A stretch of DNA of 32,497 bases. It comes from Acidobacteriota bacterium. GTDB taxonomy: Bacteria; Actinomycetota; Thermoleophilia; Gaiellales; Gaiellaceae. Where the stretch lies: assembly GCA_028876365.1 (NCBI GenBank), contig JAGWRZ010000148.1:1-32497 (forward strand), written 5' to 3'. The notes below the pieces were generated by a model. It had not been told where the DNA came from. It made no database searches and saw only the letters and a list, made by a program, of their open reading frames with translations. This document shows positions 5,577 to 13,319 of this stretch, piece after piece (positions within the stretch are counted from its first letter, which is position 1; each line of letters begins with the position of its first letter). Made by a program: the position numbers and the translations under genes.

Positions 5577-6008
5577 CTACGCCGCTTCGAGCCCGTGCAG
5601 CGTCTCCTCGTCGATTGCCCCGAGCGCGGTGCGCAGCCGCTGGCGGAGCATCCGCGTCTCCGTTGCGAGGCGCTCGTTCTCGGCGAGCGACGTGCGCTGG
5701 ATCGCGCGCGCCTCGGCGTGCGCCTCGGTGAGGATGAGCTCCGCCTCCTTTCGCGCCTGCTCCTTCATGTCGGCCGACGCCCGCTCAGCCGACACGAGCG
5801 TCGTGCGCAGCAGCGCCTCGAGCTCGCGGAAGCGAACGAGGTCGGACTCGAGCTGCTCGACCTTGTCGGCGAGGTCGGCGCGCTCCCGCCACACGTCCTC
5901 GAAGCTCGCGACGATCTCGGCGAGCAGCCGGTCGGTCGCAGCGCGCTTGTAGCCGAAGAGGCCCCTGCCCGGCGTCATGTGCAGGATCTCGACTGGTGTG
6001 AGTGCCAT
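5577..6008 (-). CDS. DivIVA-domain coiled-coil protein
   Basis: Probable DivIVA/Wag31-type pole or septum organiser. The 143-residue product opens with LTPVEILHMTPGRGLFGYKRAATDRLL, the DivIVA N-terminal lipid-binding module, followed by a long coiled coil (about residues 35-125) rich in Glu, Arg, Leu and Ala. It is shorter than Wag31. GGGGAGAGA precedes ATG 6008. Last gene of the operon after yggT and sepF, a gene order typical of Gram-positive dcw regions. Confidence 0.88.
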   Translation of the reverse strand: MALTPVEILHMTPGRGLFGYKRAATDRLLAEIVASFEDVWRERADLADKVEQLESDLVRFRELEALLRTTLVSAERASADMKEQARKEAELILTEAHAEARAIQRTSLAENERLATETRMLRQRLRTALGAIDEETLHGLEAA

Positions 6009-6022
6009 CTCTTCTCTCCCCT

Positions 6023-6334
6023 CTAGTGGAACTGGTCGAGGATCCGGATCGCCACCTGGCCGAGGATCAGGAGGACGATGATCCCGATCATCGGCGAGAG
6101 GTCGAGCGGGCCGAACGACGGCAGGATCCGCCGGAACAGCCGCAGGTACGGCTCGGACACGTCGTAGAGGAAGCGCTGGATCCGGTTGAGCCAGGGCGAA
6201 TAGGGCAGCCGCAGCCAGCTCGCGACGATGTACAGGAGGATCACGAGCGAGTACACGCTGACGAAGACGTCGATGAACTTCTCCGCCTTCGTGATCGCGT
6301 CTCCGAGCAGGGTGAGAGAGGCTGCAACGCCCAT
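6023..6334 (-). CDS. YggT family membrane protein
   Basis: Small integral membrane protein of about 103 residues with two hydrophobic segments (about 22-42 and 78-97) joined by a loop with the family's YDVSEPYLRLFRRILPSFG motif. Relatives are linked genetically to cell division and osmotic tolerance, but the exact role is unknown. The larger open frame upstream is a shadow of sepF, so I start at ATG 6334, 32 bases after sepF. No clear ribosome-binding site is seen. Confidence 0.87.
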   Translation of the reverse strand: MGVAASLTLLGDAITKAEKFIDVFVSVYSLVILLYIVASWLRLPYSPWLNRIQRFLYDVSEPYLRLFRRILPSFGPLDLSPMIGIIVLLILGQVAIRILDQFH

Positions 6335-6366
6335 CAAGGGGCGGTTCGCGGTGGGAGCCCCGTTTC

Positions 6367-6921
6367 CTACGCCTGGTTGAAGAAACCGCCCCGCTCCAGC
6401 ATCCGGGCCCGCTCCTCGGCGGAGACCTCGACGTTGCGCGGGGTGAGCAGGAAGACCTTGTCGGCGACGCGCTGCATGCCGCCGTCGAGCGCGTACGTGA
6501 GGCCGCTCGCGAAGTCGATCAGCCGTTTCGCGAGCTCCTGGTCGGAGCCCTGGAGGTTGAGGATGACCGGCATGCCCTCCTTGAAGCGGTCGGCGATCTG
6601 TTGCGCGTCGTTGAAGCTTCGCGGCAGCACGAGGTGGACACGGACGGCGCCGGGCCCGGGCACGCTCTCGACGCCGCGGAGCCGGCGCGGCTCCGGCGCC
6701 GGCCGCAGGATGCTCGTCCGCGCCATCGACGCGGACTCCGGGTCTGTCCAGTCGTCGTATTCCTCCCGGCGGCCGCGGCGCGGCAGGCGGCGGACGTTCG
6801 GCCGCTCGGCGTAGGCGCGCTGCAGCTCCTCGTCGGTGACGAACCCGTCCTCGTCCCAGTCCTCCTCTTCGGCGATCCCGAAGTAGACGAGCGTGCGGTT
6901 CCACACATCGGCGAAGGCCAT
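6367..6921 (-). CDS. sepF: Cell division protein SepF
   Basis: Binds FtsZ and membrane and helps anchor and order the Z-ring in organisms without FtsA. The 184-residue protein has an N-terminal amphipathic helix (MAFADVWNRTLVYFGI), a variable acidic and Arg-rich linker (about residues 17-85), and the conserved SepF core with VHLVLPRSFNDAQQIADRFK, PVILNLQ and RLIDFASGLTYALDG near residue 140. Thirteen bases separate it from yggS. TAACAT lies ten bases before ATG 6921, a possible extra near-leaderless promoter. Confidence 0.95.
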   Translation of the reverse strand: MAFADVWNRTLVYFGIAEEEDWDEDGFVTDEELQRAYAERPNVRRLPRRGRREEYDDWTDPESASMARTSILRPAPEPRRLRGVESVPGPGAVRVHLVLPRSFNDAQQIADRFKEGMPVILNLQGSDQELAKRLIDFASGLTYALDGGMQRVADKVFLLTPRNVEVSAEERARMLERGGFFNQA

Positions 6922-6934
6922 GGTTGCGCGGATG

Positions 6935-7516
6935 TTACCCCGACCAGAGGACTGATCCCAGCCGCACGAGGGTGGCGCCCTCTTCGGCGGCGACGGCGTA
7001 GTCCTGGCTCGTGCCCATCGACAGCTCGGGCAGCCCGTGCTCCTCGCCGAGCTCGCGCAGGCGGCGGAAGTACGGCCGGGACGCCTCCGGATCGGCGGTC
7101 GCCGGCGGCATCGTCATCAGCCCCCGGACGCCGGGGTGGAGATCGAGGAAGCGCGGCAGGTCGCCGGGGTCGAGCCCGGATTTCGACGGCTCGCCGGAGA
7201 GGTTCACCTCGACGAGCGCGGGGATCGCCAGCCGCTGTGCCGCCGACTCGGAGTCGAGCGAGTGGCAGAGCTCGCAGATGGCGTTGACGATCTTCGCCTT
7301 GCGGCTCTGCAGGTGGCCGATGAAGTGCCAGCGGAACGCGTCGCCGTACCGCGCGTGCTTCGCCGCCAGGTCCTGCGCTCGGTTCTCTCCGACGACGGAG
7401 ATCCCCGCCTCGGCGAGCAGCGCCATGTCGTCGAGGCCGACGTACTTCGTCGCGGCGACGACCGTGACCTGCGGGCCGATCTCCTCGACGATGCGCGTGT
7501 ACCGCTCGCGGATCGC
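6935..7516 (-). CDS. YggS/PLPBP family PLP-binding protein with no usable start codon
   Basis: PLP homeostasis protein of the alanine-racemase-fold family. Conserved parts are VTVVAATKYV (PLP lysine, codon 7447-7445), VVGENRAQDLAAKH, FHFIGHLQ-like WHFIGHLQSRK, and the C-terminal LSMGTSQDY and GATLVRLGSVLW. The frame carrying all of these has no ATG, GTG, TTG or CTG between the in-frame stop at 7537-7535 and ATG 7426, which is too far in because it lies after the PLP lysine. ATG 7518 overlaps the pgeF stop in the expected coupled position but is out of frame by one base. I give the extent from the first codon after that ATG. Either a base was lost next to the start, or the assembly is wrong there. 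Confidence 0.8.
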   Translation of the reverse strand, partial: AIRERYTRIVEEIGPQVTVVAATKYVGLDDMALLAEAGISVVGENRAQDLAAKHARYGDAFRWHFIGHLQSRKAKIVNAICELCHSLDSESAAQRLAIPALVEVNLSGEPSKSGLDPGDLPRFLDLHPGVRGLMTMPPATADPEASRPYFRRLRELGEEHGLPELSMGTSQDYAVAAEEGATLVRLGSVLWSG

Positions 7517-7517
7517 A

Positions 7518-8258
7518 TCAGGTGACGTATGCGATCACTCCCTGCCGCCCGGTCCTGCCCGCGTCGCGGCGATGGGAGAAGAAGCGGTCGCCGTCGCACG
7601 ACGTGCACTGGTCGAAGCGCGCGACCTCCTCGACGCCGGCCGCGCGGAGCGCACGCTCGACGCACGTCCAGAGGTCGAGCTTCCCCTCGCGGACGACGTC
7701 CGCGCCGAACGCCTCCCGCGACGGCGCGGCGACGTCTTCCCCGACCTCGTAGCAGCACGGCCCGATCGCGGGGCCGGTTGCGGCGGCGAGCAATCCCGGC
7801 CCGAGCGCGCGTACGCCCTCTGCGACGATGCCCGCGAGCAGGCCGCGCCAGCCGACGTGCAGGACGGCGAGCGCGGGCCGGACGCCCGGCTTCGGCATGC
7901 GCGCGATCGCGACCGGGACGCAGTCGGCGGTGATGAGGAGCATCGCGCGGCCGCGCTCGTCGCTCCACAAGCCGTCGCAGTGGTCGTACACCGTGCCGGG
8001 GGTGACGATGCCCCGCGACTGAGCGCGTGTCACCGTGGCGCCGTGGCGCTGCCACGCCATCGTCGCCGCGTCCGGGTCGGCGCCGACCGCCTCGCACAGG
8101 AGGCGGCGGTTCTCGACGACGCGCGCGGGATCGTCCTCCGTGCGGATGCCGAGGTTCAGCGATGCAAACGCTCCCTCGCTGACGCCGCCGGCGCGCGTGG
8201 AGAAGGCCACGCGGTATGCGCCCGGCGCATCCCACTCGATCAGCCCGACCGCGCTCAC
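7518..8258 (-). CDS. pgeF: Peptidoglycan editing factor PgeF / multicopper polyphenol oxidase-like (LACC, YfiH family)
   Basis: Family proteins are reported as purine nucleoside phosphorylases or deaminases and as amidases that remove wrong stem residues from peptidoglycan precursors. The 246-residue product has the expected metal ligands His72 (WQRHGATV), Cys113 (ITADCVP) and His134 (LHVGWRGL), plus GPAIGPCCYEVG. GTG 8258 overlaps the stop of the cca-type gene as GTGA. Position beside yggS, sepF and divIVA is the standard one in Gram-positive bacteria. Confidence 0.92.
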   Translation of the reverse strand: MSAVGLIEWDAPGAYRVAFSTRAGGVSEGAFASLNLGIRTEDDPARVVENRRLLCEAVGADPDAATMAWQRHGATVTRAQSRGIVTPGTVYDHCDGLWSDERGRAMLLITADCVPVAIARMPKPGVRPALAVLHVGWRGLLAGIVAEGVRALGPGLLAAATGPAIGPCCYEVGEDVAAPSREAFGADVVREGKLDLWTCVERALRAAGVEEVARFDQCTSCDGDRFFSHRRDAGRTGRQGVIAYVT

Positions 8259-9550
8259 CCGTTCAGCATCGCACGAGCGCGGTTGACGAGCTCGTCGCGC
8301 GTGTTCGACTCGGGGTGGTCGACGACGTATTCCAGGAGGTCACGCAGCGCGCTGCCGAGCTCCGGTCCGGGGCGGAAGCCGAGGGCGATCAGGTCGTTCC
8401 CGTCGACGGCGAGGTTTCGCAGGTGGTGCGGGCTCGAGAGCTCCTGCTCGAGCAGTCCGCGCAGCTCCTCGAGGCCGCCGGCGTCGCGATCCTTCGCACG
8501 GAGGTCCGCGATCCGGTGCGCGACGAGATCGAACGCGAGCTCGTCGTCGTGCGCGTACAGAAAGCGGCGCGCCTCCCGGGGCGTCTTCGGCCGGTCCTCG
8601 GCGCGGTAGGGGTGATCGCGCACGATCGCGACGACGCGGCGGGTCAGCCGTGCCGGAAAGCGGAGGCGCTCCATCGTGGCGTGCGCGATGCCGGCTGCGA
8701 CACGTGCGTGCCCGATCGGGTCGCCGTCGACGGGCTTTCCGACGTCGTGGAAGAGCGCGGCCAGCCGGACCGCGAGCTCGTCGCCTGCATCGGCCGTCTC
8801 CTGCACGACCGCGAAGATGTGGTCGGAGAGGTGCACCGCCGGTCCGAACTCCGGGATCAGCTCGACGAGGACGCCGGTGTCGCGCGCGACGACGAGAGCG
8901 TCGCGGGGGCGCGCGCCGAGCAGGAGCTTCGCCAGTTCGTCCGCGATCCGCTCGCCCGAGACGCGCGTCACCGCGGCGGCTTCCGTCCGCATGTGCTCGA
9001 GCGTCCCGGCCTCCAGCTCGAACCCGAGCTGGGAGACGAAACGCAGACCGCGGACGAGCCGCAGCGGGTCCTCTGCGAAGCTCGTCGGGGACACCGTGCG
9101 GAGGAGTCGCAGGCGCAGGTCCTGCCGCCCCCGCAGCGGGTCGACGAGCGCGCCGTCGGCGAGCCGCCGCGCCATCGCGTTGACGGTGAAGTCGCGGCGG
9201 CGCATGTCGTCCTCGACCGACAGCGAAGGGTCGGCGACGATCTCGAAGTCGTGCCGGCCCGGGCCGGTGCTCACCTCCTTGCGCGGCGGAGCGAACTCGA
9301 TCCCCGCCGGCGCGAGTCCCCGGATGCCCTTGTCGCGCGGGTGCAGCCGCACGCCGACGAGGCGCTCGGCGACGACGAGGTCCTCGACGCGCCCGTGGGG
9401 CTCGAGCGCCGCGCGCAGCGCGTCCGTGTCGACGCCGGGGACGAGGAAGTCCGCGTCCTTCGACTCGAGGCCGAGCAGCTCGTCGCGAACAGCGCCGCCG
9501 ACGAGATACGCGTCGAGACCGAGAGACCGGACGTAGTCCTCGATGAGCAC
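8255..9550 (-). CDS. tRNA nucleotidyltransferase / poly(A) polymerase family with HD domain
   Basis: Class II nucleotidyltransferase, probably CCA-adding. The 431-residue protein has LVGGAVRDELLG (residues 16-27) and the metal-binding pair DAD at 32-34, then RRRDFTVNAMA and EDPLRLVRGLRF in the neck region, and a C-terminal HD domain with LFHDVGKP. Sequence alone does not separate CCA-adding, A-adding or CC-adding specificity. GTG 9550 follows the ridA stop directly (TGA then GTG). Confidence 0.9.
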   Translation of the reverse strand: MLIEDYVRSLGLDAYLVGGAVRDELLGLESKDADFLVPGVDTDALRAALEPHGRVEDLVVAERLVGVRLHPRDKGIRGLAPAGIEFAPPRKEVSTGPGRHDFEIVADPSLSVEDDMRRRDFTVNAMARRLADGALVDPLRGRQDLRLRLLRTVSPTSFAEDPLRLVRGLRFVSQLGFELEAGTLEHMRTEAAAVTRVSGERIADELAKLLLGARPRDALVVARDTGVLVELIPEFGPAVHLSDHIFAVVQETADAGDELAVRLAALFHDVGKPVDGDPIGHARVAAGIAHATMERLRFPARLTRRVVAIVRDHPYRAEDRPKTPREARRFLYAHDDELAFDLVAHRIADLRAKDRDAGGLEELRGLLEQELSSPHHLRNLAVDGNDLIALGFRPGPELGSALRDLLEYVVDHPESNTRDELVNRARAMLNG

Positions 9551-9940
9551 TCAGAGAGCGGCGATTGCTTCGATCTCGACGAGCGCGCCGGATGGGAGCT
9601 TCGCGACCTCGACCGTCGAGCGCGCAGGCGGCGTGTCGCCGACGTGCTTCGCGTAGACCGCGTTCATGCCCTGGAAGTCGTCGAGGTTCTGCAGGAAGAC
9701 CGTCGTCTTCACGAGCTTGTCGAGCCCGCTGCCCGCTTCCTCGAGGATCGCGCGCAGGTTCGCGAGCGCCTGCTCGGTCTGCTCCTCGATCGTTCCCCCG
9801 GTCAGATCCTTGTCGCCCGCCTTCAGCGCGAGCTGGCCGGAGACGAAGACGAAGCCGCCGCTGCGGATCGCCTGCGAGTACGGTGCGCCCTGGAAGGGCG
9901 CGGGCGCCGCCTCCGTGCGCACGACGGTCTTGTCAGCCAC
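9551..9940 (-). CDS. ridA: RidA family reactive-enamine deaminase
   Basis: Hydrolyses 2-aminoacrylate and related enamines or imines produced by PLP enzymes. The 129-residue product has PYSQAIRSGGFVFVSGQ, PARSTVEVAKLP with the key Arg107, and VEIEAIA with Glu122, which match the Arg105/Glu120 pair of canonical RidA. Start GTG 9940 overlaps the end of the HisB-like gene by 8 bases. It shares an operon with yggS, also a PLP-related housekeeping gene, so a joint role in PLP side-chemistry is plausible but unproven. Confidence 0.93.
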   Translation of the reverse strand: MADKTVVRTEAAPAPFQGAPYSQAIRSGGFVFVSGQLALKAGDKDLTGGTIEEQTEQALANLRAILEEAGSGLDKLVKTTVFLQNLDDFQGMNAVYAKHVGDTPPARSTVEVAKLPSGALVEIEAIAAL

Positions 9941-10451
9941 GCTCTGCCCCTTTCTCGGTGCACGCTCCCGCGAGGGCGACGCCGAGCGCCTTGAAGATCG
10001 CGTCGAGCACGTGCTGGGTGTCGGTTCCATTGAGGAGGCGCACGTGCAAGGTGATGCCGGCGCCGTCGGCGAAGCGCTCGAGGAAGCGGCGGGCGACGTC
10101 GGTGCCGAGCCCGCCGATGCGCGCCTGCGTCAGGTCGACGTTCGAGACGAGAAGCGGCGCGTCCGACACCTCCAGGATCACGTTGGCGAGCGCCTCGGCG
10201 GACGTCATCAGCCCGAAGCCGTAGCCGCGACCCTCACGCAGCGGGCCGGCGAGCGCGCGTCCGAGCCCGGTGCCCGCCTCGGCCACCTCCGTCTCGGCGG
10301 CGCCCGGCTCGACCTCGAGCGAGAGGTCGAACGAGGCGTACTCGGCGAGCCGCTCGAGCAGCCGGTCGAGGATCGGAAGGCCGGTCTCGACGCTCACCGA
10401 TCCGGCCCCGCGCGGGTCGACCCGCACACCGCTTCTCCCCGCCGCGTTCAT
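9933..10451 (-). CDS. HisB-like protein (imidazoleglycerol-phosphate dehydratase fold) lacking most metal ligands
   Basis: The 172-residue protein aligns along its length with IGPD: ETGLPILDRLLERLAEYASFDL matches the TGVPFLDHM region, and ITLHVRLLNGTDTQHVLDA plus IFKALGVAL matches the C-terminal region. The two Mn-binding HH motifs are changed: HHTVED corresponds to ETEVAEA (residues 53-59) and NxHHxxEA to DTQHVLDA (144-151, only His147 kept), and the His of LDH is Arg30. Glu86 of the DEALA motif remains. It is unlikely to dehydrate imidazoleglycerol phosphate. No other his gene is in the window. It leads a long operon with ridA and cell-division genes. True role unknown. Confidence 0.82.
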   Translation of the reverse strand: MNAAGRSGVRVDPRGAGSVSVETGLPILDRLLERLAEYASFDLSLEVEPGAAETEVAEAGTGLGRALAGPLREGRGYGFGLMTSAEALANVILEVSDAPLLVSNVDLTQARIGGLGTDVARRFLERFADGAGITLHVRLLNGTDTQHVLDAIFKALGVALAGACTEKGAERG

Positions 10452-10538: not shown

Positions 10539-11432
10539 GTGCTTCCCGCCGCGGCCGCCTTCCTCGCTGCGCTCGCCGTCTCGGGAGCGGGATGGCAGCT
10601 CGCGGCCCTCGACGAGGAGAGCGTGCCGCCGGCGGTCGTCCATGCTGCGGCCCATGTCGAGATCGCCGTCATCGACACAGGGGCGGACATGCGCGTTCCG
10701 GAGATCGCGGCGCACGTGTCCGGCACGTTCGACGTGCGCACCGGGACGAGGGACGTGCGCGATCCGAACGGTCACGGCACGTTCGTCGCCTCGATCGCGG
10801 CCGCCTACGGCGGCGATGCGCGCCTTCTCATCGTCAAGGCCGGGAGCGCGAGCGGCGCGTTCACCGACCAGTACGAGTCCGCCGCGATCCACTATGCGGT
10901 CGCCCACGGCGCCCGCATCATCAATCTGAGCATCGGCGGGTCGAGCACGTCGGCGATCGAGCGCGCCGCGATCCGCTTCGCGGTCGCGCACGGGGCCCTC
11001 CTCGTCATCGCCGCCGGGAACGACTACGGGATGGGCAATCCGGTCGAGTATCCGGCTGCGCTCGTCCAGCCCGTCGGATCGAGGGGAGCCGGCAGCAAGG
11101 GCCTCGCCGTCGCCGCGGCAGCCGAGGGCGCGCGAGCGCCGTTCTCCGACAGCGGATCGTGGATCTCTCTCGCGGCTCCGGGCGTACGGGTCTACGGGGC
11201 GCTCGGCGACGGCAGGTACGGGTACGGAAGCGGCACGTCGTTCGCCGCCGCAGAGGTCTCCGGCGCGGCCGCGCTCGTGTGGGCGGCGAACCCGTCGCTC
11301 TCGGCGCAGGAGGTCGCCCGCATTCTCGAGACGACCGCGTCGGGTCACGGCGCGTGGACCCCGGAGCTCGGCTTCGGCGTCGTGGACGTCTCGGCCGCCG
11401 TCGTGCGCGCGCAGCGGCTCGCGGCCCGCTAG
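10539..11432 (+). CDS. Secreted subtilisin-like serine protease (S8 family)
   Basis: Small S8 peptidase of 297 residues. Residues 1-18 or so are a hydrophobic signal peptide. The catalytic triad is Asp46 (IAVIDTG), His79 (NGHGTFVAS) and Ser234 (SGTSFAAAEVSG), with oxyanion Asn161 (IAAGNDYG). Only about 25 residues separate the signal peptide from the catalytic domain, so the usual inhibitory/chaperone prodomain is missing or very short. There is no C-terminal membrane anchor, unlike mycosins. GTG 10539 is fixed by the -10 spacing. The stop overlaps the murA stop in CTAG. The substrate is unknown. Confidence 0.9.
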   Translation: MLPAAAAFLAALAVSGAGWQLAALDEESVPPAVVHAAAHVEIAVIDTGADMRVPEIAAHVSGTFDVRTGTRDVRDPNGHGTFVASIAAAYGGDARLLIVKAGSASGAFTDQYESAAIHYAVAHGARIINLSIGGSSTSAIERAAIRFAVAHGALLVIAAGNDYGMGNPVEYPAALVQPVGSRGAGSKGLAVAAAAEGARAPFSDSGSWISLAAPGVRVYGALGDGRYGYGSGTSFAAAEVSGAAALVWAANPSLSAQEVARILETTASGHGAWTPELGFGVVDVSAAVVRAQRLAAR

Positions 11433-12736
11433 GCGGACGTCTCGACGCGCTCGATCGACGCGCCGAGCGCGCGCAGCCGGTCGTCGATCCGCTCGTAGCC
11501 CTTGTCGATCTGGTGCGCGGCGCCGATCGTGGAGCGTCCCTCGGCGCACAGCGCGGCGAGCAGCATCGCCATGCCGGCGCGGATGTCCGGGCTCTCCATC
11601 CGCTGTCCCACGAGCTGGGTCGGGCCGGTGACGACCGCGCGATGCGGGTCGCACAGGATGATGCGCGCGCCCATCGAGATCAGCTTGTCCGTGAAGAACA
11701 GCCGGTTCTCGAACATCTTCTCGAACATGAGCACGGTGCCGAACGCCTGGGTCGCGACGGTGATCGCGATCGACGTGAGGTCGGACGGGAACGCCGGCCA
11801 GGGGCCGTCCTCGATCTTCGGGATCATTCCGCCGAGGTCGTCGCGGATGACGAGCTGCTGCCGCGACGGAACGTGCACGCTCGACTCGCCGACCTCCATG
11901 CGCACGCCGAGACGCTCGAATGCGGGCTTGATCGACACGAGGTCCTTCGGGTCGGCGCCCTCGACCGTGACGTCGCCGCCCGTGATCGCCGCCATGCCGA
12001 TGAAGCTCCCGACCTCGATGTGATCGGGGCCGATCGCCCACGATCCGCCGCGCAGGCTGTCGACCCCCTCGATGCGGAGGACGTTCGACTCGATCCCCTC
12101 GATGCTCGCCCCGAGCGAGACGAGGAAGCGACAGAGGTCTTGCACGTGCGGCTCGCAGGCGGCGTTGCCGAGCACCGTCTCCCCCGGCGTGAGCACGGCC
12201 GTCATCACCGTGTTCTCGGTCGCCATGACGCTCGCCTCGTCGAGGAAGACGTGCGCGCCACGCAGGCCCGCCGCGCTGAACTCGTACACGCGCTCCCCGG
12301 CGATCTGCGCACCGAGCTCCGCGAACGCGTGCATGTGCGGGTCCAGCCGCCGGCGGCCGATGACGTCGCCGCCCGGCGGCGGCATCGTCGCTGCGCCGAA
12401 GCGGGCGAGCAGTGGGCCCGCGAGAAGGAAGGAGGCGCGCATGCGCGCGCACAGCTGCGGATCGGGGCTCGACCGCGTGACGTTCGCCGTGTGGACGCGA
12501 ACCTCGTTCGGGCCCGTCCACCCCGCATCGGCGCCGAGGTCCGCGAGAAGGTCGAGCATCGTGTCGACGTCCCTGATCCGGGGAACGTTCGTCAGCGAGA
12601 CGGGCTCGGATGTGAGCAGCGTCGCCGCGAGGATGGGAAGGGCGCCGTTCTTGTTCCCCGCCACGCGGATCGTCCCGGTGAGAGGGCGCGAGCCTTCGAT
12701 CGCGAAGGCGTCGGCGACGGCGGGGGCGATGGCCAT
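11429..12736 (-). CDS. murA: UDP-N-acetylglucosamine 1-carboxyvinyltransferase (Asp-type active site)
   Basis: First committed step of peptidoglycan synthesis: transfers enolpyruvate from PEP to UDP-GlcNAc. The 435-residue protein has GNKNGALPILAA with Lys29, MRASFLLAGPLLARFG, and PPGGDVIGRRRLDPH, where the fosfomycin-target Cys is Asp124, as in mycobacteria and chlamydiae. FPSDLTS and RAGMAML carry the other expected active-site residues. ATG 12736 is preferred; the frame extends 23 codons further but into the divergent gene. Start codon lies 19 bases from the divergent HD gene. Confidence 0.95.
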   Translation of the reverse strand: MAIAPAVADAFAIEGSRPLTGTIRVAGNKNGALPILAATLLTSEPVSLTNVPRIRDVDTMLDLLADLGADAGWTGPNEVRVHTANVTRSSPDPQLCARMRASFLLAGPLLARFGAATMPPPGGDVIGRRRLDPHMHAFAELGAQIAGERVYEFSAAGLRGAHVFLDEASVMATENTVMTAVLTPGETVLGNAACEPHVQDLCRFLVSLGASIEGIESNVLRIEGVDSLRGGSWAIGPDHIEVGSFIGMAAITGGDVTVEGADPKDLVSIKPAFERLGVRMEVGESSVHVPSRQQLVIRDDLGGMIPKIEDGPWPAFPSDLTSIAITVATQAFGTVLMFEKMFENRLFFTDKLISMGARIILCDPHRAVVTGPTQLVGQRMESPDIRAGMAMLLAALCAEGRSTIGAAHQIDKGYERIDDRLRALGASIERVETSA

Positions 12737-12743
12737 AGGGCGG

Positions 12744-12750
12744 TAATGTA
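12744..12750. promoter_or_regulatory. Bidirectional -10 heptamer between murA and the HD gene
   Basis: TAATGTA. On the plus strand TAATGT (12744-12749) ends six bases before GTG 12756. On the minus strand TACATT (12750-12745) ends eight bases before ATG 12736. The whole intergenic gap is 19 bases, so both genes must start transcription inside it unless promoters lie in the opposing coding sequence. Confidence 0.6.
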
Positions 12751-12755
12751 GCGGC

Positions 12756-13319
12756 GTGTCCGAGCCGACTCGCGAGCATGCCTGGGAAACGCTGACGAAG
12801 TACACGAAGAGCGAGTCGCTTCTCCGGCACGCTCTCGCCGTCGAGGCTTCGACCGCTGCATATGCGCGAAAGCTCGGAGAGGACGAGGAGCTCTGGCGCG
12901 TCGCCGCGCTCCTGCACGATTTCGACTACGAGATGCACCCGACGCTCGACAAGCATCCGCAGGACGGCGCGCCGATCCTGCGGGAGGAGGGGTATCCCGA
13001 CGTCGTCGTCGACACGGTGCTCTCGCACGCGGAGCATCTCGGCCTGCCGCGCGACACCCCGTTGAAGAAGGCGCTCTTCGCCTGCGACGAGTTGTCGGGA
13101 TTCGTCCACGCATGCGCGCTCGTCCGCCCCACGGGCCTCGACGGCCTCGAGCCGAAATCGGTGCGCAAGAAGCTGAAGCAGCCGTCCTTCGCCGCAGGCG
13201 TCCATCGCGAGGACGTCTACAGGGGCGCCGAGGAGCTCGGTGTCGACCTCGACGACCACATCCGCACGATCGTCGACGCGCTCAAGCCGATCGCGACCGA
13301 GCTCGGACTGAAGGCGTAG
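12756..13319 (+). CDS. HD-domain metal-dependent phosphohydrolase
   Basis: Protein of 187 residues with the HD pattern: His25 (LLRHALAVE), His54-Asp55 (ALLHDFDYE), further histidines at 91 and 94 (LSHAEHLG) and Asp111 (ACDELSGFV). The family hydrolyses phosphomonoesters or nucleotides; the substrate cannot be told. Stretches such as KHPQDGAPILREEGYPD resemble a widespread actinobacterial HDIG-type hydrolase group. Start GTG 12756 agrees with the shared -10 element. It is convergent with the aminotransferase gene across an inverted-repeat element. Confidence 0.88.
   Translation: MSEPTREHAWETLTKYTKSESLLRHALAVEASTAAYARKLGEDEELWRVAALLHDFDYEMHPTLDKHPQDGAPILREEGYPDVVVDTVLSHAEHLGLPRDTPLKKALFACDELSGFVHACALVRPTGLDGLEPKSVRKKLKQPSFAAGVHREDVYRGAEELGVDLDDHIRTIVDALKPIATELGLKA

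Follow-up and report, generated by a model that had tools for sequence, protein, structure and literature searches.

A conserved HisB-like protein without the di-manganese site, encoded at the ancestral his-operon position in the Gaiellaceae

Background

The window analysed here, a stretch of 32,497 nucleotides from a Gaiellaceae genome (contig JAGWRZ010000148.1 of assembly GCA_028876365.1), carries on its reverse strand a gene whose product resembles imidazoleglycerol-phosphate dehydratase (IGPD, HisB), although the residues expected to hold the metal are largely replaced. The question raised by this locus is whether such a protein can still be a dehydratase and, if it is not, why it has been kept. 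In the M. truncatula enzyme the first manganese ion (Mn1) is held by H141, E145, H213 and H238 of the neighbouring subunit, the second (Mn2) by H115, H142, H237 and E241, and the phosphate group is bound by R167 and R189 (PMC10978614); the motif HHXXE is present in all 535 IGPDs of a published set (PMC7284861). A preliminary description of the locus, made from the sequence, proposed a protein that keeps the HisB fold without the dehydratase metal site and that selection maintains as a conserved family of its own. This core idea agrees with the results presented below, in particular with the second hisB of the genome and with the losses and neighbours shared by the orthologues.

Results

The HisB-like gene (9933..10451, reverse strand) is an intact frame of 172 codons with its ATG at 10451 and its stop codon ending at 9933, and it lies where the preliminary description placed it. 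The 172-aa product matches the Pfam IGPD family (PF00475) over the entire domain with 88.5 bits (cut-off 27, E 6e-25); the NCBIfam HisB models give 64-92 bits, far under their cut-offs of 189-443, so that the protein does not score as a HisB equivalog. The AlphaFold2 model (pLDDT 87.7, pTM 0.86) shows the duplicated half-domain fold, and Foldseek aligned it with a TM of 0.86 to 8qax, 4qnj and 4mu0, the IGPDs of M. truncatula (HISN5) and A. thaliana (IGPD2). A profile built from 30 orthologues retrieves the solved IGPDs with an E value of 1.5e-35. Both its fold and its descent mark the window protein as an IGPD, and the whole-domain match and the structural model bear out the preliminary description on this point. 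It shares with the known enzymes (HisB/HIS3/HISN5) the core length, the glycines and the order of helices and strands, as well as the equivalents of K245 and H238. In contrast, most of the eight metal ligands are absent or seldom kept in the HisB-like family, the phosphate-binding R167 is lost, the xxET N-terminus and the STKG C-terminus are missing, and there is no tie to the histidine pathway.

The ligand positions were taken from the M. truncatula enzyme (PMC10978614), their transfer to the alignment of the window protein being our own mapping. Three motifs (all on the reverse strand) are affected. L28-D-R30 (10362..10370) replaces LDH, which provides a Mn2 ligand; E53-T-E-V-A-E58 (10278..10295) replaces HHTVED, which provides ligands of Mn1 and Mn2 and a ligand-binding Asp; and D144-T-Q-H147-V-L-D-A151 (9999..10022) replaces NxHHxxEA. 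The window protein retains one of the eight ligands, H147, which corresponds to H238. Among 75 aligned orthologues one ligand is kept in 9, two in 33, three in 32 and four in a single protein, and none keeps more than four, whereas all eight are found in 78/78 canonical HisBs when Glu or Asp is accepted at H213. The equivalents of H141 and H142 are His in 0/75 orthologues and that of H237, the first His of the second pair, essentially never (at most 1/75); the H213 equivalent is mostly Arg, and the E145 equivalent is Glu in only 5/75. Other positions are better preserved, namely the equivalents of H115 (His in 55/75), H238 (73/75) and E241 (Glu in 40/75), and these three occur together in 29 orthologues.

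The two replacements that the preliminary description reported as ETEVAEA and DTQHVLDA are those seen at E53-E58 and D144-A151. The loss of both HH motifs is indeed common to the orthologues, except that one His of the second pair is nearly always retained, and the change of LDH to LDR is real in the window protein and is no family trait. The list of lost metal motifs was right as far as it went, and it omitted several further changes: the His/Glu preceding FF is R122 in the window protein, the residue equivalent to R167 is G in 62/75 orthologues (R189 is kept in 37/75), the STKG C-terminus is absent in 75/75, and the N-terminal xxET is also gone. The set of features of a functional IGPD, i.e. 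two (D/N)xHHxxE motifs, the DH and H/E ligands, the pair of phosphate arginines, xxET and STKG, is not found in the HisB-like protein. As 75 full-length orthologues show the same kind of loss, a chance event in one genome is excluded, and with both metal sites lost, the residues make manganese-dependent dehydration by this protein very unlikely.

Of 103 Gaiellaceae genomes searched for IGPD, 82 have the HisB-like gene and 48 a canonical hisB (both genes in 37, the HisB-like gene alone in 45, the canonical one alone in 11, neither in 10). A scan of GTDB genomes, together with class-wide searches, gave no members outside the Gaiellaceae among the genomes sampled; the gene appeared only in records that belong with this family, several of them titled Thermoleophilia, Gaiellaceae or Gaiella. 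Those matches in other phyla that were examined by alignment still have the HH motifs, and every copy taken from another family of the class is canonical. Between close orthologues dN/dS is 0.06-0.16, with a median of 0.185 over 123 pairs; these are Nei-Gojobori counts, which are rough where dS approaches or exceeds 1. Pairs of species without his genes are equally constrained (L015/L019, 0.07; L006/L179, 0.10). Purifying selection on the gene is strong, in accordance with the earlier view that it is under selection and not decaying.

Downstream of the HisB-like gene lies ridA, encoding the reactive intermediate deaminase (9551..9940, reverse strand), which begins with GTG and shares its first 8 nt with the end of the HisB-like frame. 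The two genes adjoin in 75/75 orthologous loci; the distance was measured in 73 of them and 44 show an overlap, most commonly of 4 nt, according to estimated start codons. A conserved block follows on the same strand (5577..9550), identified by profile matches and synteny: cca (tRNA nucleotidyltransferase), pgeF, yggS, sepF, yggT and divIVA. These neighbours, already listed in the preliminary description, are common to the orthologues. On the other side, murA (11429..12805, reverse strand) forms the upstream border of the ancestral his-operon site, and an S8 subtilase gene (10539..11432, forward strand) that is present in some genera only separates it from the HisB-like gene; both were assigned by profile match and synteny. 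An opposite-strand subtilase occupies this place also in L086, L088, L092, L097, L100 and L036. In most of the orthologous loci examined at length the HisB-like gene is downstream of murA and on the same strand, thus it usually does not head an operon as had been proposed. The promoter of its own that had been assigned to it was not recovered either, since no sigma-70-like site was found between 10380 and 10620; given the divergent subtilase gene upstream, some promoter must lie in the gap of about 90 bp in the window.

The gene order of the Gaiellaceae at this site is murA-hisBlike-ridA-cca, and the same spot holds a his operon in other families of the class. The order in L103 (family f4) is murA-hisZ-hisG-hisD-hisB-hisH-hisA-hisF-ridA-cca-pgeF-yggS-sepF; L104 (f4) has in addition a gene for 151 aa before ridA; L105 (f9) reads murA-hisZ...hisF-cca-pgeF-yggS-sepF with no ridA tagged; and in L122 (f6) the his block has the order of L103, murA and ridA not being seen beside it. 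Because the murA-ridA interval houses the his operon in these families, the HisB-like gene is considered to be a remnant of that operon at its ancestral locus. The earlier statement that the gene does not sit among his genes holds for its present neighbours and fails for the site itself, which is the ancestral his-operon position in the class. A second kind of remnant is found in a sister family, where hisD alone lies between murA and ridA (L111, 11673-12965) and the relocated his operon of the same genome (L282) has no hisD. In Gaiellaceae without the HisB-like gene murA directly adjoins ridA (L276, L277, L278, L279, L281, L286, L287 and L109).

The working hisB of the order is a fusion, HisC::HisB, located elsewhere. 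It resembles the HisB-like protein in being a HisB domain present in the same genomes, and differs from it in having all eight ligands, in being joined to HisC, in its locus and in forming a separate clade. The fusion is one open frame in the his operons of Gaiellales that were examined (L119:3288-4796, L118, L117, L282, L283, L284), the two matched domains being almost always 12-24 residues apart; hisC is not among the fused his genes that PMC7284861 quotes. In the phylogenetic tree the orthologues of the HisB-like protein make up one clade and the HisC::HisB domains of the order another, both strongly supported. The orthologue clade sits on a long branch, and AU tests reject neither its placement with HisC::HisB (p 0.64) nor its grouping with the remaining families of the class (p 0.33). 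The case for descent from the ancestral hisB is therefore built on position and on signature residues: positions 104, 106, 114, 118 and 138 read N-D-G-D-R in 72/75 orthologues, in 3/3 HisBs of family f8 and in one HisB of f6, and in none of the commonest types of HisC::HisB of the order. This signature, which is no formal test, favours together with the position a descent from the ancestral hisB of the class.

Elsewhere in the genome of the window, in a his operon on contig C6, there is a canonical hisB, hence the second hisB looked for is present. The relation of the HisB-like gene to histidine synthesis was analyzed in a near-complete set of 35 Gaiellaceae genomes (at least 90% complete, at most 5% contamination), where both genes occur in 18, the HisB-like gene alone in 11, the canonical one alone in 5 and neither in 1. 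All 11 genomes with the HisB-like gene alone are devoid of hisA and hisF, and all 23 with a canonical hisB have both; in two of the 11, G051 and G063, the hisA/hisF matches are marginal, near E 1e-5, and fall on an unrelated stretch, and three of the 11 (G027, G063, G165) have one HisD-like gene elsewhere. The HisB-like gene is consequently kept in 11/12 presumed histidine auxotrophs and in 18/23 prototrophs, 5/23 prototrophs being without it, and it is not confined to genomes that carry other his genes. By parsimony the his+/his- state changes 9 times on the orthologue tree, or 7 times when the genomes are at least 85% complete, and at least 4 changes are forced by strongly supported branches, in a count that does not tell gain from loss. 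The retention by 11 of the 12 near-complete genomes without his genes points to a role other than histidine synthesis. Many Gaiellaceae genomes, including 12 of the 35 near-complete ones, resemble histidine auxotrophs in having no hisA, hisF or canonical hisB; most genomes are metagenome-assembled, and absent his genes could in part be absent contigs. A literature search on histidine synthesis in Gaiellaceae found nothing relevant.

Discussion

From position, residues and selection, we consider it very probable that the gene encodes a vertically inherited HisB that became a conserved metal-free non-dehydratase, left at the ancestral his-operon site and probably working as a binder and not as a manganese enzyme. 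The ancestral site, the retention in genomes without his genes and the identification of HisC::HisB as the working hisB go beyond the preliminary description. In the simplest account, the his operon of the Gaiellales ancestor would have been moved, replaced or lost piecemeal, with hisB staying behind in the Gaiellaceae and hisD in the sister family. The HisB-like protein would then be no IGP dehydratase. To judge from the family it would form a stable homo-oligomer, probably a trimer, given that metal removal leads to inactive trimers for some IGPDs (PMC10978614). It would be made together with RidA, and often with MurA, by way of overlapping or near-touching genes, and would act through the binding of a small-molecule or protein partner instead of through manganese chemistry.

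RidA is trimeric, and as the two genes touch or overlap, a complex shared by both proteins is possible, if speculative. The pairwise distances of the HisB-like protein and RidA are not correlated beyond what SepF accounts for (partial r -0.006), their adjacency was inherited from the his operon, and the link may be only positional. Co-loss of the two genes was considered and rejected: 101/103 genomes have a ridA homologue, and several species without the HisB-like gene carry ridA immediately after murA.

Among the functional options, a regulatory or scaffolding role is the likeliest, with a chance that we put at about one half, followed by a new metal-free enzyme as the chief alternative. The more specific proposal that the Gaiellaceae have derived from the ancestral hisB a new IGPD-fold family, either a metal-free enzyme or a regulator that senses a ligand, expressed along with ridA and murA and important enough to have outlasted several losses of histidine synthesis, is plausible and falls somewhat short of even chances. 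A comparable case is HisZ, the catalytically dead HisRS paralogue that regulates HisG, since both are dead enzyme copies kept by selection and both come from the history of the histidine pathway; HisZ, however, serves histidine synthesis, whereas the HisB-like protein persists without that pathway.

The strongest rival is an enzyme, metal-free or differently metallated, in which the IGPD pocket has been rebuilt around H147, K154, E86, N104, D106, D118 and R138 for another small molecule. H147 is nearly always retained, K154 and E86 are each found in 74/75 orthologues, N104, D106, D118 and R138 are nearly invariant, and the equivalents of H115, H238 and E241 coexist in a good part of the family; but the family as a whole conserves no combination of three or more ligands, the window protein has a single one, and N104, D106, D118 and R138, being found in certain normal HisBs of the class as well, may be structural. 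We regard this rebuilt pocket as unlikely on balance, while giving it real weight. The protein could also be imagined to serve the histidine pathway as a regulator or structural partner, for instance of HisC::HisB, by analogy with HisZ and HisG, on account of the HisB homology and of the 18 near-complete genomes that hold both genes. This partnership is largely refuted and seems highly improbable, as nearly all near-complete genomes without canonical hisB, hisA and hisF keep the HisB-like gene, dN/dS stays low in his-minus genomes, and some prototrophs do without it. Still less probable is an active IGPD standing in for an absent HisB: Pfam assigns the protein to IGPD and the NCBIfam HisB models match it weakly, but it has lost metal ligands, phosphate arginines and the motifs at both ends, and the near-complete genomes where it is the only copy have neither hisA nor hisF. 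A decaying pseudogene of the old hisB, an idea suggested by its being the leftover of a lost operon and by its clean absence in species with murA beside ridA, is refuted by the purifying selection (dN/dS 0.06-0.2), the intact frame in 75 species, the invariant residues and the confident fold, and is the least credible of all.

A conserved, naturally metal-free IGPD such as the one proposed here would offer a natural test of the part that the metal plays in folding and in the switch from trimer to 24-mer, and a full-text search of a limited collection of papers returned none naming both IGPD and a pseudoenzyme. The murA-ridA locus shows how a leftover gene of a dismantled operon may be retained for a new role. 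For genome annotation, reliance on Pfam alone would give histidine-auxotrophic species a HisB. As a separate observation on this locus, cca exists in two forms, one of about 430 aa, as in the window, and one of about 850 aa, found in other species, that carries long additional domains at its N terminus (L109:4388-6943, L106:7921-10485, L110:4411-6999 and L111:8649-11243).
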